From contig CAKZQG010000026.1 of the NCBI GenBank assembly GCA_937139605.1, positions 1-64,000 of the forward strand: a stretch of DNA of 64,000 bases. The letters are read 5' to 3'. Made by a program: the position numbers and the translations under genes. The notes under the pieces are model-generated. The model was not told where the DNA came from and did not search any database. It saw only the letters and a program-made list of their open reading frames with translations. Shown here in pieces: positions 24,923 through 52,292 of the stretch. Source of the stretch: an uncultured bacterium. GTDB lineage: Bacteria > DRYD01. Position 1 is the first letter of the stretch; each line of letters starts with the position of its first letter.

Positions 24923-25203
24923 TTTTTAATCCCATTATAAGTAACCTAAAATCGTAAAAATAAATTTTTTTACTTTTTATAATTGAAATTAAATAAAAAA
25001 TAAAAAAACACTTCTTAAAAAATGATAAAGCATTAAAAAATTATAAAAATTTTCTGTAAAAATGACATACCCCAAACCCCCTAAGGAATTAACAAAACCA
25101 GTAATACCAAGTCAAAAACATCCATACATAAAAAAACCATTGAAAAACAAGAAACTAAATAAACATAATAACTTAACAGAGTACTTTTATTGTCTTTTGT
25201 TAA
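24923..25203 (-). CRISPR. Fossil CRISPR leader with a decayed first repeat
   Basis: 24923-24952 is a worn repeat (AATCCCATTATAAGTAACC then TAAAAT). From 24953 to about 25175 the sequence is alignable throughout to the active leader at 35544-35750: GTAAA-TAAATTTTTTTAC, CTTCTTAAAAAAT, CAGTAATACCAAG, AAAAACATC-ATACATAAA and ACCATTGAAAAA-AAGAAACTA are shared. The GC-rich inverted repeat of the active leader is lost here. Near 25189-25203 TTATTGTCTTTTGTTAA is a decayed form of the palindrome at 35844. This is a duplicated, dead leader. Confidence 0.85.
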
Positions 25204-34843: not shown

Positions 34844-35543
34844 GTTTCAATTCCTTATAGGTAGGCTAAAACTCAGTGTTTTTATGCCATTAAATACAGT
34901 TATAGTTCGTTTCAATTCCTTATAGGTAGGCTAAAACTATTAGCAACAAAAACAAAACTTAAAAGAGAATATTTGTTTCAATTCCTTATAGGTAGGCTAA
35001 AACTTTCTTTGGTAGGGGTTTTGCAACCCCTACCTTGTTTCAATTCCTTATAGGTAGGCTAAAACATTCGTATCTTATCTCTAATCTCTTCCTTATACTT
35101 ACGTTTCAATTCCTTATAGGTAGGCTAAAACGAATAGAGATAGTATAGGGATGGAATAGGGATAGAGAGTTTCAATTCCTTATAGGTAGGCTAAAACGAG
35201 ATCTTCCTTTTTGAGGAAGATCTCGTTGACTGGAGTTTCAATTCCTTATAGGTAGGCTAAAACCTCCTTGGATTGGGATTTTTTCCTAGTTGAGCTTATG
35301 TTTCAATTCCTTATAGGTAGGCTAAAACGGAGTAAGGAGGAAAGTATGAGTTTATTGAAATTAGGTTTCAATTCCTTATAGGTAGGCTAAAACATAAAAA
35401 ATAAAAAAATTCTCTCCCTGCAGGCAGGGGAAAAGTTTCAATTCCTTATAGGTAGGCTAAAACAATAACTTCTACTATGAGTTATGAGTATAGTAATAGA
35501 TTATAGCACAATAAGTTTCAATTCCTTATAGGTAGGCTAAAAC
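34844..35543 (-). CRISPR. CRISPR array, 11 repeats of 29 bp and 10 spacers
   Basis: Repeats start at 34844, 34909, 34975, 35037, 35103, 35169, 35235, 35300, 35365, 35435 and 35515 and are identical. On the plus strand each begins GTTTCAATTCC and ends GGTAGGCTAAAAC. On the transcribed minus strand the 3' end is therefore ATTGAAAC, the form typical of I-B and III-B crRNA tags. Spacers, left to right, are 36, 37, 33, 37, 37, 37, 36, 36, 41 and 51 bp. The leader is on the right, so the 51-bp spacer is the newest. Spacers 3 and 6 are perfect hairpins, and 9 and 10 contain shorter inverted repeats. Confidence 0.99.
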
Positions 35544-35860
35544 CCGTAAAGTAAATTTTTTACTTTCTATAATAAAATTAAATAAGAAATAAAAAAATCC
35601 TTCTTAAAAAATAATAAAAAATTTCCGTCGATCGGAGATACCCCCAAAACTCCTAAGGGATCGACGAAACAAGTAATACCAAGATAAAAACATCAATACA
35701 TAAAGAAAACCATTGAAAAATAAGAAACTACATAAGCATAATCAATCCCTTGAAAATAAAAGAATAAACAATTGTAAAAATTTAATTAACAATTTTGTAA
35801 TATTTTTTTAACAAATAAAAATCGATCGACGGAAACATTTTTATTGACTTTTGTCAATAT
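35544..35860 (-). promoter_or_regulatory. CRISPR leader
   Basis: AT-rich sequence adjoining the leader-proximal repeat. It holds a GC-containing inverted repeat, CGTCGATC (35626-35633) and GATCGACG (35659-35666), and a further GATCGACGG at 35824-35832, all unusual in this base composition. The palindrome TTGACTTTTGTCAA lies at 35844-35857. Read on the minus strand it begins TTGACA, a -35-like element, but no matching -10 is clear. The same leader, decayed, occurs at 24953-25203. It probably drives the array and guides Cas1-Cas2 integration. Confidence 0.85.
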
Positions 35861-35898
35861 TTTTAACACATCTTCTAAAAAATTACTATTCATCCTCT

Positions 35899-35953
35899 AA
35901 TACACTTCCCTAAATACACTTCCTTAAATACACTTCCTTAAATACACTTCTCA
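35899..35953. repeat. Four tandem copies of a 14-bp unit
   Basis: The unit AAATACACTTCCTT is repeated four times with small changes in the outer copies. It lies between the leader and the end of cas1. From here to 36083 the sequence is AT-rich with several ATCA/ATCC patches and no gene. Confidence 0.8.
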
Positions 35954-36083
35954 TACATCTCCTATATCAAAAATCAATTTCCTTATTATAAAAAATCATC
36001 ATTATCAAAAATCATCCACATTGTTTTATCTACAATTCCCTTGTTTTATCACAATTCTATTATTTCTATTATTATCAATTTCA

Positions 36084-37201
36084 CTACCAATCACTAACAA
36101 AAGGCTCAAAATCCTCCTCACCTATCAAATGTTTCTCTAACTTATATAACTCCATCCTAATTACCCTCCTATAACTAACTTTATTTATTTTTTTTAAATT
36201 TATAGTAGTATTTAACCTTTCTTCAAGATATTTTATAAACTTCTTTTTTCCATCCTCATTCAAATAAGTAATACCTAAATCCTCATTAAAATCATCTGCT
36301 GATATAATCTTCTTATTAACTAAAGTAAAAATAGTTCTATCAACAATAACAGGCTTAAATATTTCAGAAATATCCAGATTCAAAGAAAATTTTCTATAGG
36401 TAGCCGAATGTAAAAAACCTATCCTAGGATCTAAATGAGTCCTATATATTTCACTCAAACAAATACTATACAAATAAGAATTACCAAAACTAATCAAAGC
36501 GTTAATTTTATCAGCAGGCGGGCGTTTTGAACGCTTATCAAAATAAAAATCCTCATTCCTCATAATTTTATTGAAAGCTCTATAATAAATAGCCTTACTA
36601 TTCCCTTCATAAGCCATTAACTCCTCTATATTCTTACATCCATTAACTTTCTCTAAAAAAATCGATATAGAAGATATCTCATAATCTAAATCATATCCCC
36701 TATTTTTGTAATAATTCAAAATCCGTAAGCTATTAAGAATAGCTCCAATAGTAATCGCCTTGGCTAAAAAAACCCTTTTATTAGTATCTAAATAATGCTC
36801 AACCTGCTTTAAAAGAATAAAACCAGAATTATAAAATTCCCTTGGATAATACGTACCCTCATAATAACCATAATAATTATAAAAATGAACCAAAATATTA
36901 TGCTTAGAAACAAAATCCAAAAACTTTTTAGTTATATAAAAACTATTAGAAAATATATGTATCTCGTTAATAGCATTAAATGGAATATATTTTTTATTAA
37001 TATTCTTAGAAGATCTTTGATTCTGATTATTTAAATCCTTACTATCTGTATCTTATCTTCACAATTATCTAGATGATTATCATCAAATTTTTCAATATTA
37101 TCAAGCTCTTCAATATTACGTTGAGTACTTTCTTGAAAATATATAGTATTTTGTTTTCTTTTTAAATAACCATCCTTAAAAATAAAAAGTGGTTTCCTCA
37201 T
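36084..37201 (-). pseudogene. cas1: CRISPR integrase Cas1, interrupted by a frameshift
   Basis: Cas1 with Cas2 inserts new spacers. The C-terminal frame (from 37053 leftward, including an ATG at 36920) has HNILVHFYNYYGYYEG, the RAFNKIMRNEDFYF and RPPADKINALISFGNSYLYS block, HLDPRIGFLHSATYRKFSLNLDISE and the metal ligands typical of Cas1. The N-terminal 50 residues are in another frame starting at an ATG at 37201 (MRKPLFIFKDGYLKRKQNT, a classic Cas1 start). The frames meet at GATAAG, about 37052-37057, where one base is missing. The join falls in an Asn/Asp-rich insert of about 45 residues between beta strands that most Cas1 proteins lack. Restoring one base would give a protein of about 373 residues. 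A real lesion would stop adaptation. Confidence 0.85.
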
Positions 37202-37229
37202 TTCCCATTATCTTTATTTTTAACTTTAA

Positions 37230-37493
37230 CTAAATTATATTAAAATCAGAATTCTTCAATACCCCCATATTATCTCTAATTAAATTTTTTTTATTAGGTA
37301 ATATATAAAAAATAACAGAATCATAATTTTCATCAATAACTTCCTTCAATTCTTTTTTTAATTTTAACAGGTTAGCATCAGTTATCTCACCTTCCAAAAC
37401 AGAATTCTGAATCCAGTTAAGATACTTTCTAGCAACTTTTAAAACCTTAGATACTCTTTCCTCAGACACATCATAAACCATAACTAAATACAT
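37230..37493 (-). CDS. cas2: CRISPR-associated protein Cas2
   Basis: Cas2 is the small dimeric scaffold of the Cas1-Cas2 integrase. The 87-residue protein has the ferredoxin-fold start MYLVMVYDVSEERVSKVLKV with the conserved Asp, then YLNWIQNSVLEGEITDANL and a C-terminal strand VIFYILPNKKNL. Length is normal. Transcription runs from cas2 into cas1 with a 28-bp gap, the reverse of the usual cas1-cas2 order. Confidence 0.95.
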   Translation of the reverse strand: MYLVMVYDVSEERVSKVLKVARKYLNWIQNSVLEGEITDANLLKLKKELKEVIDENYDSVIFYILPNKKNLIRDNMGVLKNSDFNII

Positions 37494-37542
37494 AAACCTA
37501 CCCCATTAATTTAAAGTCCAATTAATTCAAAGTTTTTTAGTA

Positions 37543-38304
37543 TTAAAGGATATCAAACATACCAAATCCTTGAGAATTCTTAGCTCCTAAACCTACATCG
37601 TAAGCAAACTTTATAATATCTCTATCCCCACTAATAAAAAAATTACCATAAAACCCCTTTATCACATAATCACCTTTATACATTATAACCCTACAATGCC
37701 TCTTATAATCAAAAGAACCTAATTCTAAATTAAAATTAAAATTATCTTCATTCAAATTAGCTAAATAAAAAGAATTATACTTCTTTAATAAATTAAGTTT
37801 TATAAGCCTATAAAATTCCTTCTCCAAAGGAGAATAATAATAAGTTTTCTTCAAACTTCCTCCATTACTTAAAGTACTATAAACAGTTATAGGAGACAAT
37901 AACCTTATAGATACCCCTTTTATACATGAATCATTAAAAACAGTAGGATACTTAATAACTTCAATAGATTTAAGATAAATAACATTTTTAAATAATATAA
38001 ATTTTTCATTTAGTACAAAAGATTTAGCTAAATTAGCTAACAAATCATCTAAAACAGAAGAAATATAAAAATAAAACTCCTTATTTATATTAATCATTTT
38101 GTTTTGAATAATGCCTTTAGGAAATATTTTAGAAAAAACAAAAAGCTTAAACTTTCTTTTATTATATGAATAAGCATTGTTATGAATAAATTCAGATAAA
38201 TTTGGATCAATTATATTCTTATAAATAAAGCTTTGTAAAACATAATTGTAATGAACCGGTAAAATGATATTTCTATCAGAATAAAACGTTAATTTTATCC
38301 TCAT
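37543..38304 (-). CDS. cas6: CRISPR pre-crRNA endoribonuclease Cas6
   Basis: Cas6 cuts pre-crRNA within the repeat to leave the 8-nt 5' tag. The 253-residue protein has two RAMP-like folds: it opens MRIKLTFYSDRNIILPVHYN, with a His in the catalytic helix region, and closes with the glycine-rich loop GLGAKNSQGFGMFDIL. Size is standard for Cas6b. It is the only Cas6 in the window, so it probably serves both the I-B and III-B complexes. Placed between cas4 and cas2, which is unusual, since cas6 often leads I-B operons. Confidence 0.92.
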   Translation of the reverse strand: MRIKLTFYSDRNIILPVHYNYVLQSFIYKNIIDPNLSEFIHNNAYSYNKRKFKLFVFSKIFPKGIIQNKMININKEFYFYISSVLDDLLANLAKSFVLNEKFILFKNVIYLKSIEVIKYPTVFNDSCIKGVSIRLLSPITVYSTLSNGGSLKKTYYYSPLEKEFYRLIKLNLLKKYNSFYLANLNEDNFNFNLELGSFDYKRHCRVIMYKGDYVIKGFYGNFFISGDRDIIKFAYDVGLGAKNSQGFGMFDIL

Positions 38305-38327
38305 ATATAAAGTAATTTAAATAATAA

Positions 38328-38882
38328 TTAGCTAAAGCAATAGAATCTATAAGCACATTTTTCACAAAAAACTATTTTCTTAAATTTAGGTGGCTTTTCA
38401 TTTTTTATAATATTAGTTATAGAATCTATACATTCCTTTAATTCCTTTTCTAGCTCAGGAGTTAATTCCACTTTTATATTTTTTTTCTCTAACGGTATCA
38501 ATAAATTAGCAGTTAAGGTAGGTATAATATTTTTTAGAGTATATAAATAAAAAGCTACCTGCATGATTGCCGGCTTTATAAACTTCGAACTTTTTTTTAT
38601 TTCCCCAATTATTACTGTATTCTCTTCTGATAATCTTATAATATCTATCTTTATATTCTCAAATATAAACTCTTTTTTTTCGTTAGTGTAAAATATTTCA
38701 TGAATTGTTCGACCAACCTCTAAATAAGGGTCTTCTTGATCAGAATTGATATTTCTACTTATAAACCAAACTTGTCTATGACAAACATAATAATACCAAA
38801 CTAAAACCCCCATTATCCTTATCTCCTCATTATTACTATAAAAATCCAAATCCTCTTTTAAATAGTCTTTAAATATATCCAT
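38328..38882 (-). CDS. cas4: CRISPR-associated exonuclease Cas4
   Basis: Cas4 trims and PAM-selects prespacers for Cas1-Cas2. The 184-residue protein has one Cys in YYYVCHRQVWF (about 34), the RecB-like nuclease residues in EVGRTIHEIF and IIGEIKKSSKFIKPAIMQVAFYLY split by a short loop (E-x-K and Q-x3-Y), and the C-terminal iron-sulfur cysteines in CEKCAYRFYCF. All four cluster cysteines are therefore present. It is free-standing, not fused to Cas1. Confidence 0.94.
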   Translation of the reverse strand: MDIFKDYLKEDLDFYSNNEEIRIMGVLVWYYYVCHRQVWFISRNINSDQEDPYLEVGRTIHEIFYTNEKKEFIFENIKIDIIRLSEENTVIIGEIKKSSKFIKPAIMQVAFYLYTLKNIIPTLTANLLIPLEKKNIKVELTPELEKELKECIDSITNIIKNEKPPKFKKIVFCEKCAYRFYCFS

Positions 38883-38946
38883 AATGAAATTATATAACCC
38901 AAAACGCTACAGATAATTAAAAATAAACAAATTAAAATAAAAATAA

Positions 38947-41451
38947 TCAAAATAATAATAAATCTTCATTTTTAGGTATAAAACCTGTTTCTTTATCATA
39001 ATAATTTTCAAGCATAGAATTACACACATATAAAAAGCCATTATTTTCTACAGGTAAATTTTCTTTAGCATATGTATAAGAAACATTTATAACATATGAA
39101 TAGAATTCTGATTTTATTTTTAAAAACCTTTCTCTTTGCTTATAATAATCTTTTCCCTTTTTTAAATTAGAAATGATATCACAATATTCTTGCCAGATAT
39201 TTACGGCATTTTCATCAATCTCAATAAAAATAGGATATTCTATATACTTCCGCTCGATTAAATTAAATAAACTAATATTACTGAAATTCAATTCCTTTAC
39301 ATAATTAATTAGTTCATAACTAACATCTTTAGAAACCTTGTTTATTAGTAAATTATTATAAATTTCGTATATATTATAAAAATCTTTTTCATATATTTCG
39401 TTGGAATTAATTTCTAATATCATATTTATAGTATTTTCAGTTAAAATCTTATCGTAAATATATGAATAAAAATACCTTTGATTTTTTTCATCTAATATTT
39501 TGTATATATCAATATTACATGGTTGTAGGTTATTATAATTTCTATTAGTTCTACCAGCAACTTGTATTATACTATCTAAAGGGCCAAAATCTCTTATAGC
39601 GTAATCAAAATCAAGATCAACCCCAGCTTCTATCAACTGAGTAGAAACCACTATCTGCTTGTAATTATCATACATTCTATTCTTTATATCCTTTATTATC
39701 TGTAATCTTTGTTTAGGGATTATATGAGAACTTAAAAAGTAGATCTTTATTTGATTATCTATTATTTCTTGTTTTAATAATTTATAAAATTCTTTTGCAG
39801 ACCTTATTGTATTCAAAATTACCAGTATATTTCTATAATATTTAAAAACATCTAAGAGTTTATTTTTTAAATCCTGTAAAGTTAAATCTTCGTAGATATT
39901 AAAGTTTATTTTTACTCTATTTAGATTTATATAAAGCTCTTTGTAAGCAAGTGTTTTATTAGTTTGTAAAATTATAGGTTTTGTAGCAGTAGATAAAATA
40001 AAATAATTGTTAAAATAATAAGATAAAGCCTTAAAAATTGTATTTAAAAAAGAATAATATTTATAGGGGATATTTTGAACCTCATCTAAAATTACAATAG
40101 AACTAATCAAATTATAGAATCTCATTAAAGTCGAGACTTTATTTTTAGTAATAGTTTCAAATAATTTAACAAAAGTAGTTAAAACTATGTGGGAATCCCA
40201 ATTTTCAATCATTAACTCTCCCTTTAGTAAATCCAAGTATTCTATATTTTCATCACTATTATCAATCTTATACTCAAATTTACTAAGATAATGATGAGAT
40301 ATATATAAATTACTTGTTAAATTAATTTTTTTAAAATTAAAAGCCTTTTTTATTAATTCATCTACCTGGTCTATTATACTTAAAAAAGGTAAAGAATATA
40401 TTACTTTAGGATGATAATTAAAATTTGATTTTATTTTTTCTTTAATTTTTAATGCTAAATTTAAATTAATAAGAGTTTTCCCTATACCTGTTGGTAAATT
40501 TACCCCTATAATATTATCAAATAAATCATTTAAAATTTCTTGCTTTATTTTATTATAAGTTTCTTGCCTTAACTTTAAAAATTGATTACTATTATTTTCA
40601 ACATCTTGATTTAAAGTATTTTTATTTAAGTTATTTACATAATCATCGAAAATATCATAATCTATAAAATCTTGATTAAAATAAAACAATTGAATATTAG
40701 CTGCGTCTCTTCTATCAGCAAATAAAAGTATAGACATAATTAAAAAAGTAAATATATATTTACCTGCAAGCTCATATAAACTATTTTCATTATCCAACAC
40801 TAAAATCTTTTCATTTAAATTAACTATTTCTTTATAAATTTTACAAAAACTTACTTTATTGAAGTATTTATGGAATTCATTATAATTATATAATAAATTT
40901 TTCGTATTATTTAAAGATTTTTCTAAATAAGGGATTTCATTAAAAAAACTATTATCTAAATTCTCTTCAATTGAATTTAACTGTTCTTTCAATATGTCTA
41001 TATTATTTTTATCAATAGATATATTATCATATAGATTTTCTAAATAACTATGATGTTTTTTTATAACTATAAAACCTATATATGGAATAATATATCTTAA
41101 TTCTTCTGAAATATTTTTTGGGATTAAGTATTCTTTTAAAGCAAAGAAAGCTAATATAGCAGATATTAATGAATGTTTAGTTAAAGGAGATACTTTTAAC
41201 TTATTTTTTTTATTATTATTAGTTTCAAATAAATATTCTTGGAAATATTTTGTAGCTTTGCCAAGATCATGATAATACGCTATTATTAAAGATATATCTA
41301 TTAATTCATCTTTATTTAAGCCCATTATATTATTTTTTACAAAAATATTAGAATAAAGCTTTTTAGAAATATTAGCAGTATTTCTTAGATGATCTATCAA
41401 ATACTTATCAGGATGAGAATATAACATAATCTTAGTTTCTAAAATATTCAT
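38947..41451 (-). CDS. cas3: CRISPR helicase-nuclease Cas3 (type I-B)
   Basis: Cas3 is recruited by the I-B Cascade to nick and unwind target DNA. The 834-residue protein has an N-terminal HD nuclease domain with IIAYYHDLGKATKYFQEYL (about 53-71) and KHSLISAILAFFAL. It then has an SF2 helicase with Walker A LPTGIGKTLINLNLAL (about 318-333), the Walker B variant ILDEVQNIPYKYY, STATKP, and motif VI IQVAGRTNRNY. DEVQ replaces DECH/DEAH. HD and helicase are in one chain, as usual for I-B. It starts immediately after cas5 stops. Confidence 0.95.
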   Translation of the reverse strand: MNILETKIMLYSHPDKYLIDHLRNTANISKKLYSNIFVKNNIMGLNKDELIDISLIIAYYHDLGKATKYFQEYLFETNNNKKNKLKVSPLTKHSLISAILAFFALKEYLIPKNISEELRYIIPYIGFIVIKKHHSYLENLYDNISIDKNNIDILKEQLNSIEENLDNSFFNEIPYLEKSLNNTKNLLYNYNEFHKYFNKVSFCKIYKEIVNLNEKILVLDNENSLYELAGKYIFTFLIMSILLFADRRDAANIQLFYFNQDFIDYDIFDDYVNNLNKNTLNQDVENNSNQFLKLRQETYNKIKQEILNDLFDNIIGVNLPTGIGKTLINLNLALKIKEKIKSNFNYHPKVIYSLPFLSIIDQVDELIKKAFNFKKINLTSNLYISHHYLSKFEYKIDNSDENIEYLDLLKGELMIENWDSHIVLTTFVKLFETITKNKVSTLMRFYNLISSIVILDEVQNIPYKYYSFLNTIFKALSYYFNNYFILSTATKPIILQTNKTLAYKELYINLNRVKINFNIYEDLTLQDLKNKLLDVFKYYRNILVILNTIRSAKEFYKLLKQEIIDNQIKIYFLSSHIIPKQRLQIIKDIKNRMYDNYKQIVVSTQLIEAGVDLDFDYAIRDFGPLDSIIQVAGRTNRNYNNLQPCNIDIYKILDEKNQRYFYSYIYDKILTENTINMILEINSNEIYEKDFYNIYEIYNNLLINKVSKDVSYELINYVKELNFSNISLFNLIERKYIEYPIFIEIDENAVNIWQEYCDIISNLKKGKDYYKQRERFLKIKSEFYSYVINVSYTYAKENLPVENNGFLYVCNSMLENYYDKETGFIPKNEDLLLF

Positions 41452-42303
41452 CTAAAATATACTTATACTTAATTTAGAGTTAGTATTATCTTTTAATATT
41501 AGTGTTTTTTTTAATGTAGCTTTTATAGTTTTTGCATTATTCTCAAATAAAAAAACTTTATATTTTATAGTTTGTCTATTAGGATCCATTAAATAAGCTA
41601 CCTTTTCTTTCATATAAAACTTATTCTCTAAGCCTAAATTTAATTCTAAATTTTCTAAATTATCTATATCTATTATGGTATTGAAATCAGAATTATAGTT
41701 TTCTTTTATGTCTATTATTTCATATTCATTTATATATTGATAATTCAATAAACAAAAACTTAAACCCATATATGGAGTAAATACAGCCAATCTATTTAAT
41801 AAATTATATTTTAATTTTTGGTATATATTTTGATCTTCAATAGAAACATATATTCTATAGCTAGGGTTCTTTAAGAATTCAATATTAACTTGAGTCCTAT
41901 AGATCTTAATAGGTTCTTTGAGTTTAGAAATATCTTGAAATATTTTTGTTCTTTGGCCATCTGATTTACAATCAACTAAATTTAAACCTAATCTTATTTT
42001 ATTCACTGGATTTAACAAACTTAAAGCTATTATAGTATTATCTGGTTTCATTAATTCAAAATATTCGCTATTATTATTGCCATAAATATCCTTAGGTATG
42101 CCAACTATAGCAGCTATTATACCTATTATCGCTGTTCTTGGAATAATAGAGAATGTCAAAGGAGAAGATGTAGTATAGTACTTCCTAAAATGCCCATAAT
42201 CAGAATATATATCAAATACCAAAAATTTATTATTACTTTTCTTTAAAACTAACTCATAAATATTCTCATTGATCTCATTTATATTTTTGTTTGCATTCAT
42301 CAC
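41452..42303 (-). CDS. cas5b: Type I-B Cascade subunit Cas5
   Basis: Cas5 holds the 5' tag of the crRNA in Cascade. The 283-residue protein has FDIYSDYGHFRKYYTTSSPLT-type text (about 30-50), then SIIPRTAIIGIIAAIVGIPK (about 52-71), the signature of Cas5 in I-B systems (Csh-type). The rest is a weakly conserved RAMP fold, with a TYMGLS-like AVFTPYMGLSFCL segment. It abuts cas3 exactly and follows cas7. Confidence 0.92.
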   Translation of the reverse strand: MMNANKNINEINENIYELVLKKSNNKFLVFDIYSDYGHFRKYYTTSSPLTFSIIPRTAIIGIIAAIVGIPKDIYGNNNSEYFELMKPDNTIIALSLLNPVNKIRLGLNLVDCKSDGQRTKIFQDISKLKEPIKIYRTQVNIEFLKNPSYRIYVSIEDQNIYQKLKYNLLNRLAVFTPYMGLSFCLLNYQYINEYEIIDIKENYNSDFNTIIDIDNLENLELNLGLENKFYMKEKVAYLMDPNRQTIKYKVFLFENNAKTIKATLKKTLILKDNTNSKLSISIF

Positions 42304-42357
42304 CTTTTATCACCTTGTGTATATATTATTTTAAGTATATATTATTTTAAGTATATA

Positions 42358-43254
42358 TCATTTTAGATTTCTCAACTCTTCTAAATTAATATTATTTTTT
42401 AATTCATCTATATAAGGCTTATATATTAGATTTGGATTTATAATATACCTTATTTTTTCTATTTTATCTTTGTTATTTATTAGCGTATCATATAGCTCAG
42501 TTAAATCCAATTCATAATCCTTATAAGATCTTATATATTCATCTTTTTCGACTTTAAGATTTAATTTAATTTTTTTATCTAAATCTCCAATATGAAAATT
42601 ATTTTGCTTATATACTATTTGTAGTAATAATCTACTTTGTTGAGAAGGTTTAGATCTTGTTATTAAATTATTAGTGCCGTAATAGATAGCTTCTAAAAGG
42701 AGCTCAACATCTTCTTCCGTTAATTGAGTTTCCTTAGCAGCATTCTCGTTAATTATTCCATAAAAACAAATTAATGAATAAGGTAATAAATAAGTTTCCC
42801 AGAATGTTCCTTGCTGTCTTTCACTAGCTGATGGTAAAACTGTTGTACCCTTTATATAATTTATATCCACTTTATGTAAAGATCTTCCAAATTTAAATTG
42901 TACAGGCCCTGTTAAAGCATAATTATTGTTTTTTATTGAAAAAGTCCCTCCAAATAATCTTATATCTATACACCTATTTATTACCTCATTTAATTCTTTA
43001 TATGCTTGAAAAATTTCGTCCCTTGTTTTTAGGTTATTATTTTCATCTCTTTCTTTTCTAATAAATATCTCCCTACCTTTAAAATCCTGTAAATAATCTC
43101 TTATTGTTCTTTTTAATCTGACATCAGTTACTATATTATAATTAGTTAATTCATCTATTCTTGGTTTATTATCTAAAGCATCCCCATTAGGATTACCATT
43201 TTCTATATCATATATAAATAAAATCTCACTTCTATTTTTTATAATATTACTCAT
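42358..43254 (-). CDS. cas7b: Type I-B Cascade backbone Cas7 (Csh2)
   Basis: Cas7 polymerises along the crRNA to form the Cascade backbone. The 298-residue protein opens with RSEILFIYDIENGNPNGD and ALDNKPRIDEL, the diagnostic Csh2 start. RLKRTIRDYLQDF, DIRLFGGTFSIKN and TGPVQFKFGRSLHKV follow. The end is short and Asn-rich. Length and order (cas8b, cas7, cas5) are standard for I-B. Confidence 0.95.
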   Translation of the reverse strand: MSNIIKNRSEILFIYDIENGNPNGDALDNKPRIDELTNYNIVTDVRLKRTIRDYLQDFKGREIFIRKERDENNNLKTRDEIFQAYKELNEVINRCIDIRLFGGTFSIKNNNYALTGPVQFKFGRSLHKVDINYIKGTTVLPSASERQQGTFWETYLLPYSLICFYGIINENAAKETQLTEEDVELLLEAIYYGTNNLITRSKPSQQSRLLLQIVYKQNNFHIGDLDKKIKLNLKVEKDEYIRSYKDYELDLTELYDTLINNKDKIEKIRYIINPNLIYKPYIDELKNNINLEELRNLK

Positions 43255-43315
43255 TTAACTTTCACCTCCAATTTCTCTTTTAAATTTTTATTTTTTAAAT
43301 TTTTAATTTTTAAAA

Positions 43316-45127
43316 TTAATTACTTTTAAATGTATTTTCAAAATAATTACTAAAGCTCATACCTAAAGCAAAATAGAAGTTAATTTCATCTAAGGAAATA
43401 TTTTTATAATTTTCTTTCCAATCTGTCCCAACTTTCAAATAATAATAAGAAACTAACTCCTTTAGTATTGTAAAAATTTTATAATTAATATCGTATTCCA
43501 TGATTTTATTTACAAGTTCTTTATAAAGTATTTTAAAATCATTTTCATTCATTTTTAAGTTTTTAATATTTTTAATGAAGGGTGAAGATCCTCGTCGTCT
43601 TTGTTGTTCTTTTATAAAAAGCTGCGTCAATACCCCTTCTAAAAATATAAATTTAAATAAATCATTTATAAAAGCTTTAGAAAAATTATTAAAAAAATTC
43701 TCTGCTAACTCTATATTTGTTTGGTTAATATTTTCGATTTTCTCGGGTTTTATTGCATCTTCTGGCATACCTATCACCTCCTGAATTAAATTTAATTCAA
43801 GTAAAAATAAATAAAACTTAAACACATAGATAGTAGTTTCAAGAATCGAACCACTTTTAAAAGCTGAATTTAGTTTATCTGATACCTGTTTAAATAAAGT
43901 GCTTTTTGAAATAGGTATCATTTTAAATATATTTTCTATTGCCTTTAAAAACAATTTTTCATTACCATTAAATACTTTATCCTTAGCTGAATCCAATTTG
44001 AACTCTTCCCCTAAAATCTTATTAAGATTTTTATCTGTAATTTTACTTAGCAAAATATCTCCTTTAAATACCCGATCTATATATTCTTTTACAGAAAATA
44101 TTTTAGAAATCGTTGTAGGTAAAGTATTTTCTATAAATAACTTTATTCTAAATGCATTATTTTCTTTTTCATAAAATAAAAAATTGTATAATATATAAAT
44201 ATTATTAAGCCTTAAGTAATCTAATATTTCATTTTCATCTTCTGTTATCTTTCTTAAATTACTTAAAGTATTTTTTCTATTATAGTAATCTTTTATTAAA
44301 TATTTCAAAGTATCAACAAAATCTGAATTATTATTTATAACAAAATCTGGAATAAGATAATAATCAATTCTTGCTAATTTAAAGCTTAAATAATTATCTA
44401 TAAAATAATATCCATTGATTATTTTATAAATACAATCTATACATAATGGAAAATTTTTATACATTTCTTTTTCTTTAAATCCATTGGATATGTAGTTAAT
44501 TTTATCAAAGGTATAGAATTTTAGGGGGAAGCCTTTAGCCACTACAGTTTTAAAACTATCACAACTATAACATTTTCCTTGCCCTTTTACTTCAGAATTA
44601 TCTTCCTCAAAACTATTTAATATTATTTCTTTAAATTTAGATAATTCAGAATCATCTTGTATTATATCTTTTAAATAATAAATTTCTTTATTTGAATCTA
44701 TAAATCCTATTGTTATTAAATATTTTTCTTTATCTGAAAAAAGAGTTTTTAATTTTTTTAGTATGTTTTCCTTATTTTCTTTTAGTTGTAAATATATTTT
44801 ATCTATTACGAGATATTTTTGCCTATATTTATTATTACTAAAATATTTAAATATTTTATTTTCAAAAGTTCTTTCAATCTTTGTTATTTTAGCTGTTGGG
44901 GTATAATTTGTACCAGCCGATGAACCTGAAATAAGTACGTACTTTTTACCTTCTTCTTTAGTTTCTTCTAAATGGATATCCTTATACTCAAAAGTATCTT
45001 TATCAAACAATATTACAAGAGCATATTTATAATTTTGATCAACTTTTTCAGAAAGGATTTCTATTTTATCTTCATAACTTAATGAATCACTTTTATAATC
45101 ACTTAACATTATAAAATTACTAATCAT
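43316..45127 (-). CDS. cas8b: Type I-B Cascade large subunit Cas8b (Csh1 family)
   Basis: Cas8b recognises the PAM and recruits Cas3. The 603-residue protein belongs to the Csh1/TM1802 group: a zinc site is formed by CYSCDSFKTVVAKGFPLKFY and PLCIDCIYKIINGYYFID (about 184-240), the most conserved stretch of this family. The remaining sequence is helical and Asn/Lys-rich. It is the first gene of the operon; ribosome binding is by GGGAG about ten bases upstream of the ATG at 45127. A possible promoter with TTGACA lies at 45234-45247. Confidence 0.88.
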   Translation of the reverse strand: MISNFIMLSDYKSDSLSYEDKIEILSEKVDQNYKYALVILFDKDTFEYKDIHLEETKEEGKKYVLISGSSAGTNYTPTAKITKIERTFENKIFKYFSNNKYRQKYLVIDKIYLQLKENKENILKKLKTLFSDKEKYLITIGFIDSNKEIYYLKDIIQDDSELSKFKEIILNSFEEDNSEVKGQGKCYSCDSFKTVVAKGFPLKFYTFDKINYISNGFKEKEMYKNFPLCIDCIYKIINGYYFIDNYLSFKLARIDYYLIPDFVINNNSDFVDTLKYLIKDYYNRKNTLSNLRKITEDENEILDYLRLNNIYILYNFLFYEKENNAFRIKLFIENTLPTTISKIFSVKEYIDRVFKGDILLSKITDKNLNKILGEEFKLDSAKDKVFNGNEKLFLKAIENIFKMIPISKSTLFKQVSDKLNSAFKSGSILETTIYVFKFYLFLLELNLIQEVIGMPEDAIKPEKIENINQTNIELAENFFNNFSKAFINDLFKFIFLEGVLTQLFIKEQQRRRGSSPFIKNIKNLKMNENDFKILYKELVNKIMEYDINYKIFTILKELVSYYYLKVGTDWKENYKNISLDEINFYFALGMSFSNYFENTFKSN

Positions 45128-45233
45128 TTTTTTACTCCCTTATTTTTTAGTTTTTTTTCTCCTTAGGATAATTTAATTATATTTTTAATTTAGAAAATCC
45201 TTTTTTATTACTATTAAAAAAATTTAAATTTAA

Positions 45234-45247
45234 TTGACTTTTGTCAA
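45234..45247. promoter_or_regulatory. Palindrome TTGACTTTTGTCAA upstream of the I-B cas operon
   Basis: A perfect inverted repeat, TTGAC-TTTT-GTCAA, lies about 107 bp upstream of cas8b. On the minus strand it begins TTGACA, which could be a -35 box with a weak TAAATT 15 bases on. The same 14-mer is found at the CRISPR leader and repeatedly in the origin block (50653-51908). Confidence 0.55.
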
Positions 45248-45285
45248 TTTTATATGAAAATTTTATATGAAATATTAATTAATAA

Positions 45286-47982
45286 TTATTGATTAATAAT
45301 AGAGATAGTACCGGAAAATGCGTCAAGTTCTACGATATCGTTATCTTTAAGGATAGAGCAAGCGTTTTTAACCCCAACGATAGTAGGGATCCCCATCTCC
45401 CTTGCTACTATAGCAGTATGAGATAAAATACTCCCTTTTTCTATAATTAATCCAGAAATAGAAGGGAATAACAGAGTCCAACCAGGATCAGTAAATTTAG
45501 CTACCAATATCTCCCCATTTAAACTATTTAAAAGCTTATCCAATTGTTCCAAGTTATCTACTACCTTAACTTTAGCTTTTACTTTTCCACTACAAGCCAC
45601 AACCCCCCTTAAAACATTACCCTCCACTTTTAAACTACTAGGCTTTATAGATAAATAAACCTCACTAAAAGTTTCAAACCTATCTGGTAATTCAATATCC
45701 TTATATTTATCAAATTCTATCTTCCTTAATTTAATTAATTCATTTAAGTTAAATATAGTAGATTTACCAAAAGCATAATCCCAAATTTCATCCCATTCCA
45801 AAAAGAATATATCATCTTTATTACTTAAAATCCCTTTCTTAACCCATCTGTTAGAAATAACATTTAAAATATCCTTAACAATAGAATAAGCATAAGTTCT
45901 TGCTAATCTTTGTTCTTCTCTGTTTTTCATGGTGTTTATAGCTATTTTTAAAAAAAATAAATAAATCCCATACTTAAAAACCCCCAACTTCTTTCTTAAT
46001 AATTTAAGTTCATTATCAATACCTATAGTTTCTTTAGAATCATTATTTTTATTTTCATTCTGATTTTGGTTTAGTTTATCATCTTGAATCAAATAGTTTT
46101 TAATTAAAGAGAAAAGGTAAGTAGGATCTTCTTGTAAAGTTTTAGTTTCTAATTTTAATTCTCCTATTACTCTTGAACCATATTCGTTAATATAATCATC
46201 TATTTTATCAAAAATATCTTTTAAATCTGGGGATAACTCTAAATTATCTTTATTTTTATATAATTGTATAATATTTTTAGTATCAATAAAAGTTTGGGTT
46301 AAATTTTTAGTAATTATCTGTTTAGTTATTTCTAATAATTTTTTAATAGGTAAAGTAGTTTTAATAGCTCCTGTTTTAGAGAGTAATTTAATATGAGTAT
46401 TAGGATCTATTTTAAAGATGTTATTAATTTTTTTGAGAATTCCAAAAGAAATCATTACATATAAATCATTAATAATAGGAGCTTTCCAATTAAATAATAT
46501 TTTTTCCTCTAATTCTTTATAAATTTCAAATAATTCAAAAGTATTCATTTTATTTAATTTATTAGTTTTTTTTAGGTTTAAGTACTTATTATAAACATCA
46601 TAAAAATTATCTAGAAATTTTTTTATTTTTTGTTTTAAAGTGATGAAATTAATAAACATTTTAAAATAAAGTTTTAATGAATTTAATATACCATAAAAAT
46701 TTTTTTTATGGTTAATGTTAAGTCGTTGTTTAACTCCCATCATATCTTCCATAAACTCTTTATTTTGATTAAATAATGGTAATAAACTAAGTAATTCATA
46801 CCAACTAAGGAGATTATAATATACTCTATAATAAATAAAGCCTAGCATACTATCAAATAGATATCTATTTTTAAAAATAGTTTTCCTATCAAGGCCCATT
46901 AACTCACAAAACTGTTGATAAACAGAACTATAAGCTTTTCTGATAAAAGAGAAAGTCATAGGAGTAGTTATCCCTGGATAACTTTCAACTATATTAGAAT
47001 TATCCCAAATCCTATAATTGCTTATTTCAATATTAGTAATATACCGTGTTTGAAGGATATAAATCTTATTATCTTTTATACAAAATTCTATATCCATAAA
47101 ATTATTATAAAATTCTTCTATTTTTAGGGATATTTCAGCTAACTTTAAAAGTTGCTCATCACTAAGAGTAGGTTTATTATCATCTTCATAAGTTTTAAAT
47201 AAAATCTCTTTTTGTTTAGATACAATATAATTATCAGAGTTTAATTTTCCAGAAACCAATCCTTCTCCTAACCCAAAAACAGAATTGATAACAATATTAT
47301 TAGTATTATTAACAGGATCAAAGGTAAAAATAACTCCGGATATATCAGGCTCTATCATCTCTTGAACAATCACAGCAATAGAATCCTCAAAGGGATCCCT
47401 GTTAGACTGTAATTTATAATTAATTGATTTAGGCGAAAAAATAGATACTATACAATTAAAAACAGAATTAAAATAATCTTGATAATTTTTAATATTTAGG
47501 AATGTTTCCATTTGCCCTGCATAAGATTTTTCTAAACTATCTTCAGAAATAGCAGAAGATCTAATAGCTAAAATTTTATTCTCTATATAAGCTTTATCTA
47601 TTATCTCTTTTATTTCCTTATTATCAAAAAAAATCTGTTTAATATAATTTCTTAGATATTCTGCTTTCTCTAAAATTTCAGATAAATCCTTAGGTTCTAA
47701 TTTAGAAAACTCTCTAAGGTTTTGGATCTTAAATTCTTTTATAATTTCTTTTATATGATTATAGATAAAATCATAAAAGAAATTAGTAGTTATTATCTTA
47801 AAATACGGAACTTCAATATTATCAAGATTTTTTAAATTTGATTCTTTTAATAATTTAGTAATTTTAATTAATCCTAATCCCTTTCCTCCTACTAATTTAA
47901 CCAATTGAATATCATTTGATAAAAGATTATCTATCTTAATAATATCATTTTGATCTAAAATATACATTTTAAAAATATCCAT
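45286..47982 (-). CDS. PEP synthase / rifampin phosphotransferase-like dikinase
   Basis: These enzymes split ATP to AMP, pass phosphate to a swivelling His and then to a substrate. The 898-residue protein has the N-terminal ATP-grasp domain with LVGGKGLGLIKI and ILAIRSSAISEDSLEKSYAG. A long helical middle (about 340-760) follows, then the His domain at the end, GSILSHTAIVAREMGIPTIV. It lacks the PEP/pyruvate TIM barrel of true PEP synthase. This three-part layout resembles rifampin phosphotransferase, so the substrate is some other molecule. The UbiA and polyprenol-kinase-like genes directly upstream suggest an isoprenoid or lipid substrate, which is inference. Confidence 0.82.
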   Translation of the reverse strand: MDIFKMYILDQNDIIKIDNLLSNDIQLVKLVGGKGLGLIKITKLLKESNLKNLDNIEVPYFKIITTNFFYDFIYNHIKEIIKEFKIQNLREFSKLEPKDLSEILEKAEYLRNYIKQIFFDNKEIKEIIDKAYIENKILAIRSSAISEDSLEKSYAGQMETFLNIKNYQDYFNSVFNCIVSIFSPKSINYKLQSNRDPFEDSIAVIVQEMIEPDISGVIFTFDPVNNTNNIVINSVFGLGEGLVSGKLNSDNYIVSKQKEILFKTYEDDNKPTLSDEQLLKLAEISLKIEEFYNNFMDIEFCIKDNKIYILQTRYITNIEISNYRIWDNSNIVESYPGITTPMTFSFIRKAYSSVYQQFCELMGLDRKTIFKNRYLFDSMLGFIYYRVYYNLLSWYELLSLLPLFNQNKEFMEDMMGVKQRLNINHKKNFYGILNSLKLYFKMFINFITLKQKIKKFLDNFYDVYNKYLNLKKTNKLNKMNTFELFEIYKELEEKILFNWKAPIINDLYVMISFGILKKINNIFKIDPNTHIKLLSKTGAIKTTLPIKKLLEITKQIITKNLTQTFIDTKNIIQLYKNKDNLELSPDLKDIFDKIDDYINEYGSRVIGELKLETKTLQEDPTYLFSLIKNYLIQDDKLNQNQNENKNNDSKETIGIDNELKLLRKKLGVFKYGIYLFFLKIAINTMKNREEQRLARTYAYSIVKDILNVISNRWVKKGILSNKDDIFFLEWDEIWDYAFGKSTIFNLNELIKLRKIEFDKYKDIELPDRFETFSEVYLSIKPSSLKVEGNVLRGVVACSGKVKAKVKVVDNLEQLDKLLNSLNGEILVAKFTDPGWTLLFPSISGLIIEKGSILSHTAIVAREMGIPTIVGVKNACSILKDNDIVELDAFSGTISIINQ

Positions 47983-48026
47983 AATTACCGCCCCTTTAAT
48001 TATTTAATTATTTATTTTAATAATCA

Positions 48027-49001
48027 CTACTTTTTAAGTAAAATACCCGTTAAGGAAACTAAAATTGTAACTAAATAAAACAAAAATATTAATAAATATC
48101 CAATATTTTTTGATATTTTAATAACTTTATGGTTAATAGAAACATTTTTTTTACTTAAAAAAGAAAACAATATAGTAAAATAAGAAATAATTAATATACT
48201 AAAAGAAAAAAGATTTATTAATACAGGAGAAATTAAATAAAGTAGGAAAAAAATTAAAATAAAGATAATAGAGTAATGTAGAATAAGGGTTTTAGTATAT
48301 CCTAAGTTGTTTATGTAGGAATCTTGGAAGCCTTCTTGATTAGGTAATAACATTTTTCTGGAAAATTCAAATATATTAGAAACAACCCAGTTAAAAGCTG
48401 CAAAAATAAAATAATCAAATTTTATCTGATAAAAATTAGCAAAAGAAATATATATAGGAATTAAAATCATAATAACAGCATGTAAAAAAGCATATAACAC
48501 CATTTTTTTCCTTAGCCATTCTCTTAAAAAAAACTCCTTATACATTAAAAATGAATAAAAAATAACAATAGATAAAATAAAAACAGTTTTAAAATTTAAG
48601 AACAAATTAATAAATAATTCAAAAAAAATAACTAAAATAGCTAAGTTTTTAGCTTGATTTATTGTAATTAATCCCCTAACTAAAGGCCTATTAGGATGAA
48701 TTAATTTATCTGTTTGATAATCTTTTATTTCATCAAAAATTCTTAAATGAAAGAAAACTAAAACAACCGTTAAAAAACTAATAACTAAATTAAATAAAAA
48801 ATTAAAATTATAAAAATGAGATAAATTAGTATGTTGGTAAATAGATTTAAAAGCGAATAAAAAGCAAGCTAAAAAGAAAATAATTATAAAAGGTAAATGT
48901 TCATTTAAAGGGAATCTTTCTTTTATAAAGATCCCCCACTTTTTTAAATGTTCCCTAAAAGAATTATTAAAAGATTTTTTTAAATTATTATTGTTATCCA
49001 T
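48027..49001 (-). CDS. UbiA-family prenyltransferase
   Basis: UbiA enzymes join a polyprenyl chain to an aromatic or glycerol-phosphate acceptor in the membrane. The 324-residue protein has eight or nine hydrophobic helices. The first Asp-rich motif appears as DEIKDYQTDKLIHPNRPLVR (about 92-111), a normal spelling for the family. The second motif is less clear (about 218-230, NQEGFQDSYINNLGYTK). It has an extended, charged N-terminal 35 residues. The gene is 4 bp downstream of the kinase-like gene and 44 bp upstream of the dikinase gene, so the three form one operon. Confidence 0.82.
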   Translation of the reverse strand: MDNNNNLKKSFNNSFREHLKKWGIFIKERFPLNEHLPFIIIFFLACFLFAFKSIYQHTNLSHFYNFNFLFNLVISFLTVVLVFFHLRIFDEIKDYQTDKLIHPNRPLVRGLITINQAKNLAILVIFFELFINLFLNFKTVFILSIVIFYSFLMYKEFFLREWLRKKMVLYAFLHAVIMILIPIYISFANFYQIKFDYFIFAAFNWVVSNIFEFSRKMLLPNQEGFQDSYINNLGYTKTLILHYSIIFILIFFLLYLISPVLINLFSFSILIISYFTILFSFLSKKNVSINHKVIKISKNIGYLLIFLFYLVTILVSLTGILLKK

Positions 49002-49005
49002 AAAG

Positions 49006-50313
49006 TTATAGTTTTAGATTAATAAATAAGTAGTATAAAATAACGCCAAAAAATATTAGAATATTTCTAATAAAAAATCGGTGCTTTTCTAAATTAATTT
49101 TTCTAAACTCTATAAAAGAATCTAACATAATTAAAAATAAAGTTATAATTAAAAACAAATGTAAATAATTCAACAGATTAGATACCATAAATACAGGAAA
49201 AATAACAATAGTAAAAAATCCCAATAAATTTAGAATTCTTTTTAAGATATGAAGTTTTTTAGAATAATTAAATAAATAATTAAAGATGAAAATAGCTTGC
49301 CAAGAAATAACAGATAAAAATATAAAAAATATCTCGTTAATTAAACTATAATTAAAATGTATAAAAAAAGAAATGATAATACTAAAAAAAGTAGTAAATA
49401 TAACAGAATTTACATCATATTTATAATTTAACTTACTTACAAAAGCAATTAAAAAAAATATAATTTCAAAATAAAAAAGGGTAAAAAAGTAATAAATATT
49501 AGTTAAAGCAAAACAAGTATAATTAACAATAATCATAACAATTATTCCACTAATTGTAATAATCTTTGTATTATAAAACAAAATAAATGTAATAAAAATA
49601 ATGATAAATAAAGATAGAATTAAATAGATTAGATAATTTACATCTAAATTGGATAATCGTTGTAGTAAAAATAAAACCCCTAAGGGAATAAATATATTAT
49701 CAGTCCCATATATTGATATTAGCTCTAACATAGTTATTAAAATAGCTATAATAAAGGAAATAAGGATAATATTTAATAAATGGAAATTAGAGAATAAAAT
49801 CAAAGGGATTTTAATGGATAAAAAAGTCATAATAAAAAAAATAAGAGAGCCTTCTAAGGTTTTAAAATCCTGTTCAATAGGTATTTTAATTTTCCCATAT
49901 TTTTTTCCGATTATTGCAGCTAAAGCATCCGATAACGCTAACACTAATAAAGATATCAAATAAAAATAATATTCTTTGCTAAATATAAAAACTAAATATA
50001 TACTCATAGGAAATAAGATTTCTCCAATAGTTTTCCTATCTATATCAACTACACTTTTTAATAAACTATCTTTATTTTTATAAAATTTAAATATAAAAAT
50101 AAATATACTAAAAAAAATAGATAAAAATAGTAAAGTTAAATGGTTAGAAATAATAAAAGGGAAGCTTAAAGCAAAAAGAGAAGAAAAAATATGTACAAAT
50201 TTCCGAGATAACTCAACATCAAACCTCTTATATATTATCTTACCTATAAAAAATATAATAAATAGTACAGAAAAAATTAAGACAATTGCTAATAAATCAT
50301 TTTTTATTAACAT
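49006..50313 (-). CDS. Dolichol/phytol kinase-like membrane protein
   Basis: The N-terminal half matches phytol/dolichol kinases and CTP-dependent polyprenol kinases: ELSRKFVHIFSS (about 34-45), VDIDRKTIGEILFPMSIYL and ALSDALAAIIGKKYGK (about 124-139), then DFKTLEGSLIFF, which are the substrate and CTP-binding motifs. Seven or so helices lie here. The C-terminal half (about 225-435) adds another seven hydrophobic helices without motifs, making the protein about twice the usual length; it may be a fused membrane domain. It starts the dikinase operon beside the origin-like region. Confidence 0.78.
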   Translation of the reverse strand: MLIKNDLLAIVLIFSVLFIIFFIGKIIYKRFDVELSRKFVHIFSSLFALSFPFIISNHLTLLFLSIFFSIFIFIFKFYKNKDSLLKSVVDIDRKTIGEILFPMSIYLVFIFSKEYYFYLISLLVLALSDALAAIIGKKYGKIKIPIEQDFKTLEGSLIFFIMTFLSIKIPLILFSNFHLLNIILISFIIAILITMLELISIYGTDNIFIPLGVLFLLQRLSNLDVNYLIYLILSLFIIIFITFILFYNTKIITISGIIVMIIVNYTCFALTNIYYFFTLFYFEIIFFLIAFVSKLNYKYDVNSVIFTTFFSIIISFFIHFNYSLINEIFFIFLSVISWQAIFIFNYLFNYSKKLHILKRILNLLGFFTIVIFPVFMVSNLLNYLHLFLIITLFLIMLDSFIEFRKINLEKHRFFIRNILIFFGVILYYLFINLKL

Positions 50314-50436
50314 ATTTACATATTAGTTATCTATTTTATATATTTTTTATATTTTTATCATAAACCTTTAACAATTTTTTTTGGCATTTTTTGCTATTTT
50401 TTTATTTTTTTATTTTTTTCAACTTTAAGGTAGGTA

Positions 50437-50574
50437 TTTAAGTCCAAAAAGAGCTCTTTAAATCACAAGAAAGCGTTTAAATTCAATAAAAATATTAAAA
50501 CCCAAAAACTATTAAAACAAAAAAATATTAAAACAAAAAGAAATTATTTAAATTTAAAAGGAACTATTTAAACC
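50437..50574. repeat. Degenerate relatives of the 20-bp repeat
   Basis: On the minus strand units such as TTTAAAGAGCTCTTTTTGGA, GTTTTAATAGTTTTTGG and TTTAAATAGTTCCTTTTA recur every 17-21 bases. They resemble the repeat of 1-332 but run in the opposite direction. The match is loose, and low complexity could explain part of it. Confidence 0.4.
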
Positions 50575-50587
50575 ATTTTAGTTTTTT

Positions 50588-51908
50588 TAAATTTATTTGT
50601 TAAAAATTTGTAAATTTATTCATTAAAAGTATTTTTTAAGTGTGTTTTTTTATTGACTTTTGTCAATTTTTTTTGACATATTTTTAGAATTTTTTTTAAA
50701 ATTTCATAGATTGTAAAATTTGTAAAAAATATATTACAAAATTGTAAAAAACTTGTTAATAAAATCAACTTTATTGACTTTTGTCAATATCGATTTTTCC
50801 ACATTGACTTTTGTCAATTTTTTTTGGCATTTTTTTACAAAAAATTTTACAAAAATGATTCTCTTTAGGAATTTCCCTTGTTAAAAATTTGTTAACTAAT
50901 TTGTTAAAAATTTGTAAAATACCCTTTTTTATTGACTTTTATCAATTTTTTTTGATATTTACTTTTTCCATCTCTAAATGTAAAATTTGTAAAAATTATT
51001 TTACAAAATTATTAAAATTTTGTTAATAAAAATCAATTTTATTATCTTTTTTAAAAATTTAAAAAAATATTGACTTTTGTCAATTTTTTTCAATATTTTT
51101 TAATATTTTTTAAAAAATTTACTTTTTTCTTAAAAAAAATATTATTTTTTATTGACTTTTATCAACTTTTTTGTATATTTTTTTATCATTTTTTCAAAAA
51201 AATTTTTTCAAAATTTTTCAAAAAAAAATTTTGTTAAAAATTTGTTAACTAATTTGTTAAAAAATTGTTAAATGATTTTTTTATTGACTTTTGTCAACTT
51301 TTTTGACTATTATTTTTTTATATTTCTAAATGTAAAATTTGTAAAAAATATATTGCAAAATTGTTAAAAACTTGTTAATAAAATCAACTTTATTGACTTT
51401 TGTCAACTTTTTTGATATTTTTTATTTTTTTTAACAAAAAATAAAATTCCAAAAAATTTTTTAAAAAATTTTTTTTGTTAAAAATTTGTAAACTGATTTG
51501 TAAAAAAATTGTTAACACCTATTTTTATTGACTTTTGTCAATTTTTTTTGACATATTTTTAATAAATTTTTATATATTTCCTAATGTAAAATTTGTAAAA
51601 AATATATTACAAAATTGTAAAAATTTTGTTAATAAAAACCAATTTTATTTATTTTTTTTAAAATATTGACTTTTATCAACTTTTTTTATATTTTTTTATT
51701 TTTTTCAATATCTCAATAAAAAAAATATTATTTTTTTCAAAAAAAATGCCCTTTTTTATTGACTTTTATCAATTTTTTTTGATATTTTTTAAGTCTTCTT
51801 TTTTATATAAATTTTTTTCAAAATTTTTAAAAAAAATTATTTGTTAAAAATTTGTTAACTAATTTGTTAAAAAATTGTTAAATACCCTTTTTTGTTGACT
51901 TTTATCAA
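50588..51908. repeat. Compound long repeats with TTGACTTTTGTCAA palindromes
   Basis: Four to five copies of a block of roughly 245-365 bp follow each other. Each contains a TTTGTTAACTAATTTGTTAAA-type element (near 50588, 50879, 51231, 51475, 51838) and a TGTAAAATTTGTAAAAAATA element (50710, 50978, 51329, 51580). One or more copies of TTGAC-TTTT-(G/A)TCAA are also present. Palindromes start at 50653, 50774, 50804, 50932, 51070, 51152, 51284, 51393, 51528, 51666, 51759 and 51895. No gene is present. The block leads directly into the DnaA-box cluster and looks like an iteron array. Confidence 0.85.
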
Positions 51909-51969
51909 TTTTTTTATATATTTTTTTAAATTTTTCCCAATTTTTTTATTTTTTTTACAAAAAATAAAG

Positions 51970-52292
51970 TTATCCACATACCCATATAAAGTTATCCACA
52001 TTTATCCCCAAAGTTATCCACATTTTATCCACATGTGGATAAATTATATTAATTTTGTGGAAAAATTCCATTTTTTTGTGGATAACTATGTGGAAAAATT
52101 GTGGATAACTCCCAAAGGTTAAAAAAATTATCCACATATTTTTTAAGTTATCCACATCTTATCCACATACCCCCATCCTTATAAACCCTTGATAATACTA
52201 ATTCTAAAAAAGTTTTCCACAAATGTGGATAAATATACTACTACTAAATAATATATTTATATAATATTATAGTAGTAAATGAACTACTACTA
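51970..52292. other. oriC: Putative chromosomal origin (DnaA-box cluster, DnaA-trio, AT-rich unwinding element)
   Basis: Eleven perfect DnaA boxes occur: forward TTATCCACA at 51970, 51992, 52014, 52025, 52128, 52148 and 52159, and reverse TGTGGATAA at 52034, 52077, 52100 and 52224. Three one-mismatch boxes lie at 52056, 52089 and 52213. Right after the last box, ACTACTACTA (52237-52246) matches a DnaA-trio in the orientation seen in Bacillus subtilis. An AT-only tract (52247-52269) follows, then TAGTAGTA and a second CTACTACTA (52284-52292). Nearly all genes for 50 kb to the left point leftward, as leading-strand genes would. dnaA is not adjacent; dnaB is 46 kb away. Confidence 0.9.

Follow-up and report, generated by a model that had tools for sequence, protein, structure and literature searches.

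A candidate CRP/FNR-type operator shared by the replication origin, CRISPR leaders and high-output genes of an uncultured bacterium of the DRYD01 lineage

A palindrome at oriC, in a CRISPR leader and upstream of cas8b

The 64-kb window analysed here (positions 1 to 64,000 of contig CAKZQG010000026.1) lies within the draft genome of an uncultured bacterium of the DRYD01 lineage, G000 (1.88 Mb in 45 contigs, 88.5% complete). An initial annotation, made from the sequence alone, had pointed to a 14-bp palindrome, TTGACTTTTRTCAA, that recurs beside the presumed origin of replication, in the leader of a CRISPR (clustered regularly interspaced short palindromic repeats) array and upstream of the cas genes. 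The relatives used for comparison were G001, of the same genus as G000, G002 of a sister genus, G005, which was grouped with G002 in the compared features, and the more distant G006. The window features that concern the palindrome, a candidate operator, are the following.

25190..25203, + strand: possible decayed operator TTGTCTTTTGTTAA at the end of a fossil leader, with two mismatches; weak
34844..35543, − strand (read leftwards): CRISPR array, 11 repeats of GTTTCAATTCCTTATAGGTAGGCTAAAAC (+ strand spelling)
35544..35860, − strand: CRISPR leader with GTCGATC/GATCGAC elements, TTWACAA elements and the candidate operator
35844..35857, − strand: candidate leader operator, 300 bp from the first repeat of the array, which is transcribed on the − strand
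36084..45127, − strand: cas1 and type I-B cas operon (cas6, cas4, cas3, cas5b, cas7/csh2, cas8b)
45234..45247, − strand: candidate operator 106 bp upstream of cas8b, which opens the I-B cas operon
50653..51908, + strand: array of 12 candidate operators TTGACTTTTRTCAA at oriC, from the motif search; conserved in G001
51970..52232, no strand assigned: cluster of 11 exact DnaA boxes TTATCCACA that marks oriC; homologous cluster in G001 at C122 8402-8664

The window was searched for TTGACTTTTGTCAA with up to two mismatches, and dinucleotide-preserving shuffles served as the null. The search returned 15 matches, compared with 1.5 expected and a maximum of 5 in the shuffles. Fourteen copies of TTGACTTTTRTCAA, 12 at 50653-51908 and one each at 35844 and 45234, reproduce the count and positions of the initial annotation. 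The clustered copies (7 exact, 5 of the form TTGACTTTTATCAA) start at 50653, 50774, 50804, 50932, 51070, 51152, 51284, 51393, 51528, 51666, 51759 and 51895 and share one orientation; all 14 good copies in the window are intergenic and identically oriented. The sole further relaxed match in the window, TTGAYNNNNRTCAA at 59889, lies in coding DNA. A decayed copy had also been proposed for the fossil leader. The body of this leader does align at 73%, and a match with two mismatches, the fifteenth of the search, is present at 25190; the site itself, however, is weak and explicable by chance, as such matches are expected about 1.5 times per window.

Exact TTATCCACA boxes were found nowhere else in the window, and the GC skew of the contig is clearly negative to the left and positive to the right of the 51970-52232 region. 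Because the 11 DnaA boxes occur only here and the skew changes here, this AT-rich region with the adjoining array is convincingly oriC, which confirms the earlier label of an origin block. The array ends about 60 bp before the DnaA boxes. The first 104 kb of the contig showed no dnaA gene signature.

The operator block has a G+C content of about 13% and its repeat units are degenerate, the 14-mers being nevertheless kept. The sites in the window lie among A-tracts on one strand, which start near −17, −7, +5 and +15 with a period of about 10.5 bp, and most sites outside the array also have A-rich flanks. Such tracts would account for the constant AAAA centre of the array sites and for the directional look of the palindrome. 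A test for helical phasing of the spacings between array sites showed none. Several oriC sites carry an extra half-site, TTGAYAT, 6-8 bp beyond, suggesting cooperative binding.

The oriC block is also strongly enriched for a second short element, TTWACAA (34 occurrences vs 5.9 expected), which occurs in the leaders of G000 (p ~0.008 by shuffles) and G002 (p <0.002) as well. It was found neither in the G001 leaders nor in any tested promoter (rRNA, HU, S-layer, pilin). Its repeats are often about 11 bp apart (50600-51960 and L171:200-390), and in the operator array they lie between the sites. That oriC and the leaders may have TTWACAA in common is a lead, not a finding.

Distribution in the genome and conservation in relatives

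Across the 1.88 Mb draft, TTGACTTTTRTCAA occurs 22 times and the reversed-pattern control not once. Eight of these copies lie outside the window; examined as stretches around the matches, they are located as follows (contig:position).

C2:36 (L001): in a second CRISPR leader, with the same flanks as in the 35844 leader
C7:65126: 166 bp upstream of 16S ribosomal RNA (rRNA; Rfam)
C28:35072: 85 bp upstream of 5S rRNA (Rfam)
C15:26486: upstream of an HU-type gene
C8:1976: upstream of an SLH (S-layer) gene
C39:32232: upstream of a prepilin gene
C38:2845: inside an lptF/G gene
C2:70123: intergenic, near unknown genes

Copies confined to so few loci rule out an even spread through intergenic DNA. A mobile repeat is rejected as well, as the loci have in common only the 14-mer and A-rich flanks, the paralogous leaders and the oriC repeat units excepted. 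The site appears to mark a small regulon that is not private to CRISPR and the origin. The 16S and 5S rRNA genes lie on separate contigs (C7 and C28; L005 and L025) with a site at each, suggesting an unlinked 5S.

Every CRISPR leader with available sequence carries the site in three species, namely 2/2 in G000, 6/6 in G001 and 4/4 in G002; the G000 arrays on C4, C16 and C22 stop at contig edges, their leaders being unseen. The six G001 leaders, all with TTGACTTTTGTCAA, were found through carrying the site and are paralogous, and they count as one lineage, not as six events. Their repeat, CTTTCAATTCCCCTATGGGTAAGCTAAAC, differs from that of G000, and two of the six arrays have decayed. Compared with G000, the G001 site lies on the opposite side of the outer GTCGATC leader element, and this displacement suggests retention by selection, not lack of divergence. 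The four G002 leaders, at contig starts, have two sites each (TTGAT-N4-ATCAA), TTGATAACAATCAA and TTGATTTATATCAA. The leader association seen in the initial annotation extends in this way to both relatives. Unlike the leader sites, the cas-operon copy at 45234 is not conserved, being absent at G001 cas8b. The leaders (35544-35860; L034-L039; L171) also have GTCGATC ... GATCGAC inverted elements in common, one pair of which could form a hairpin, possibly an adaptation or leader-RNA element.

At the G001 origin, 9 TTGAY-AAAA-RTCAA sites (C122 8715-9620) stand beside the DnaA boxes. The comparison of operator arrays at oriC covers G000 and G001; a search for oriC by DnaA boxes in G002-G006 returned just two single matches resembling coding DNA. 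A small gene at 23635-23994 of the window is directly beside oriC in G001 (L154:9929-10288), and either insertion or rearrangement would therefore have brought the 24-50 kb CRISPR-Cas region to the origin in one of these two genomes.

Distances from site to gene are conserved, at 166/171 bp for 16S (G000/G002), 232/231 bp for HU, 83/83 bp for pilin and 183/185/169 bp for the S-layer gene; the G001 sites lie 231 bp (HU), 185 bp (S-layer) and 83 bp (prepilin) upstream. The upstream sites of G002 read TTGATAAAAATCAA at both 16S and 5S and TTGATAAATATCAA at the S-layer gene, and G005 agrees for 16S and 5S. Rfam identified the 16S and 5S genes next to sites in both G000 and G005, and the 5S gene next to a site in G002, where the 16S site was assigned through a sequence match. 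The two half-sites change in concert between the genera (C/G to T/A), TTGACAAAAGTCAA corresponding to TTGATAAAAATCAA at 5S and to TTGATAAATATCAA at the S-layer gene, with the sister-genus HU site as the exception to this symmetric evolution at orthologous loci. Half-sites that change together fit a dimeric reader, not a plain −35 box. Finally, TTGAY-N4-RTCAA outnumbered its composition-matched reversed control in G000 to G005 (46/14, 43/14, 42/6, 29/10, 12/2 and 26/6), with no excess in G006 (4/9).

Elsewhere in the window, the Cmr operon encodes a putative CRISPR ring-nuclease/CARF-type protein (TIGR02619, 28928-30052), and 20-bp tandem repeats (TTGGGTTCAAACTGTTCTTT and relatives) occupy 1-340 and 1440-1730.

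A candidate reader and the competing explanations

The palindrome has the TTGA-N6-TCAA form of the FNR class, with two equivalent half-sites; the canonical CRP site is TGTGA-N6-TCACA. TTGACnnnnGTCAA is the operator of HcpR, a CRP/FNR regulator of delta-proteobacteria whose recognition helix has another residue in place of Arg180 (Rodionov et al. 2005, PMC1274295). Profile hidden Markov model searches of whole genomes returned one CRP-type helix-turn-helix (HTH) in G000 and one in G001.

G000 C6:125414-126595: candidate divergent CRP/FNR-like protein, with orthologs in G001, G002 and G005

The G000 and G001 proteins are orthologous with 59% identity, and more divergent syntenic orthologs are present in G002 and G005. 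Their recognition helix, of the E181/R185 type, reads S-Y-E-x-x-I-R in G000/G001 and S-H-E-x-x-V-R in G002/G005; the classic CRP of G006 keeps R-E-x-x-x-R. For the AlphaFold model of the G002 ortholog (predicted local distance difference test, pLDDT, 75), the top structural matches were exclusively CRP/FNR proteins (GlxR at E 2.6e-8, HcpR, FNR). The half-site shift tracks the Tyr/His exchange in the helix between the two genera, which fits the prediction for a dimeric reader, as a correlation and not as proof.

We favour, with a probability of about 0.6, the explanation that a dimeric CRP/FNR-family factor, the divergent CRP/FNR-like protein, uses the palindrome as its operator and thereby controls high-output loci, the leaders and the oriC array. 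The operator consensus would be ATTGAY-N4-RTCAAT around the core TTGA-N6-TCAA, among A-tracts about one helical turn apart, and the lineage-specific protein encoded at C6:125414-126595, with its orthologs, would be the likely reader. It would control a small high-output set (16S and 5S rRNA, HU, S-layer and pilin), bind the leaders of CRISPR arrays and, in the G000 genus, also occupy the 12-site array beside the oriC DnaA boxes. At promoters the reader may contact or block RNA polymerase around the −35 region; at oriC it may bend or wrap the AT-rich unwinding region, or the array may titrate the regulator. At the sister-genus rRNA promoters (TTGATA-N16..18-TATAAA/T) the operator and the apparent −35 overlap, a position from which a bound dimer could repress; at the G000 16S gene, with the best −10 roughly one turn more distant, it could activate. 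The nutritional or redox state of the reader might jointly set rRNA output, array transcription or spacer uptake, and origin activity. Binding by the CRP-like protein, the direction of regulation, the signal and the effects on replication and CRISPR are what we infer from these sequence patterns.

Several observations weigh against this explanation. The G000 protein scores 20.9 bits against HTH_Crp_2, under the curated cut-off of 27, and its structural model is poor (pLDDT 54), the best fold match being FNR at E ~0.01. No operator was found upstream of the CRP-like gene itself, so autoregulation was rejected. The sister-genus HU site has a broken right half (TTGATAAAGAGCAA), and the only two species in which the oriC array was seen belong to one genus. 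Finally, a −10 hexamer is present 16-18 bp downstream of the site at the 16S gene of G002 and G005 and at the 5S gene of G002, and the conservation could partly reflect promoter function.

This last point bears on the alternative that the motif is a strong sigma-70 promoter element working without a dedicated reader, with TTGAYA as −35 and the rest as a favoured spacer of highly expressed genes. The initial annotation had likewise allowed for a common promoter-like element, and the part of that idea which stands is that the left half is placed like a −35 at the sister-genus rRNA genes. The consensus −35 is TTGACA, the genes concerned (rRNA, HU, S-layer, pilin) have a high output and, outside oriC, the A-strand nearly always reads toward the gene. 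However, a good −10 at 15-19 bp is missing at the leaders, G000 5S, G000 pilin and cas8b (at 16-18 bp it is absent or weak there), the TTTT/AAAA centre can invert (G001 S-layer, TTGACTTTTATCAA) and the 12 oriC copies face no gene within the array. The symmetric half-site change, the missing −10s and the oriC array argue against a plain −35 box as the whole explanation; we keep it as a rival and consider it unlikely.

Another dimeric regulator in place of the CRP/FNR-like protein, such as an unrelated winged-helix or response-regulator protein, is improbable. An 88.5% complete draft and the failure to find an autoregulatory site leave room for one, but the spacing and sequence equal the published CRP/FNR-family motif, the genome holds a single CRP-type HTH match with fitting recognition residues, and G006, where the motif is not enriched, is also the genome whose CRP keeps R180.

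An IHF/HU-type bending site read by the HU-like protein is highly improbable: IHF acts at oriC and CRISPR leaders in enterobacteria, the HU gene has a conserved site and five oriC copies read TATCAA followed by T-rich DNA, but none of the sites matches the IHF consensus WATCAANNNNTTR (site-anchored mismatches 1-4, mostly 2), random 38-mers from oriC match almost as well as the DNA around each site does at its best, IHF does not call for the TTGA that is invariant in the left half, and the match is two-fold symmetric.

The initial proposal that a protein reading the shared site could tie CRISPR to replication holds in part. A shared reader is well supported, the sequence link between leaders and oriC is real and the leader sites recur in relatives; the rRNA, HU, S-layer and pilin genes share the site, however, and because the regulon includes them a global regulator of growth or physiology would be the simpler reading than a dedicated tie. 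A CRISPR-replication tie is no more than plausible. Doubtful at best is the further idea that the leaders are origin-like, with operator and TTWACAA in common with oriC, and that one nucleoprotein gates both replication initiation and spacer acquisition or array expression; immunity would then depend on the replication state.

Relation to known systems and significance

The HcpR operators of Geobacter and Desulfuromonas, wyTTGACnnnnGTCAArw (Rodionov et al. 2005, PMC1274295), have the same half-sites and spacing, and both proteins have a CRP/FNR-type HTH with R180 replaced, the candidate keeping Glu 181 and Arg 185 (compared by motif identity). HcpR controls the nitrosative-stress genes hcp and frdX, whereas the G000 sites are at rRNA, HU, S-layer, leaders and oriC; the candidate reader is, moreover, far diverged, and the conserved-site centre in its genus is AAAA. 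CRP control of cas operons is known from the Pectobacterium I-F system (PMC4499141; reviewed in PMC10013973), and a CRP-family regulator of a CRISPR-Cas system is likewise predicted in G000. In Pectobacterium the cas operon is the target, whereas in G000 it is the array leader whose site is conserved, that at the cas promoter is not, and an oriC array is present. In IHF hosts, one DNA-bending protein serves both oriC and the CRISPR leader (E. coli type I-E; I-F). Its consensus is asymmetric and unmatched in G000, whereas the G000 site is a two-fold CRP/FNR-type palindrome about 155-300 bp from the array. Our literature search returned no report linking CRISPR leaders and oriC through one CRP/FNR regulator, and none of conserved CRP/FNR-type leader operators together with a 12-copy oriC operator array.

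Regulation of CRISPR arrays is known for few hosts, most cases concerning cas promoters. The defined site and the candidate protein described here suggest that the leaders, rRNA synthesis and oriC of an uncultured lineage share one CRP/FNR-type regulator. If confirmed, this would offer a testable route from growth state to replication and CRISPR immunity.

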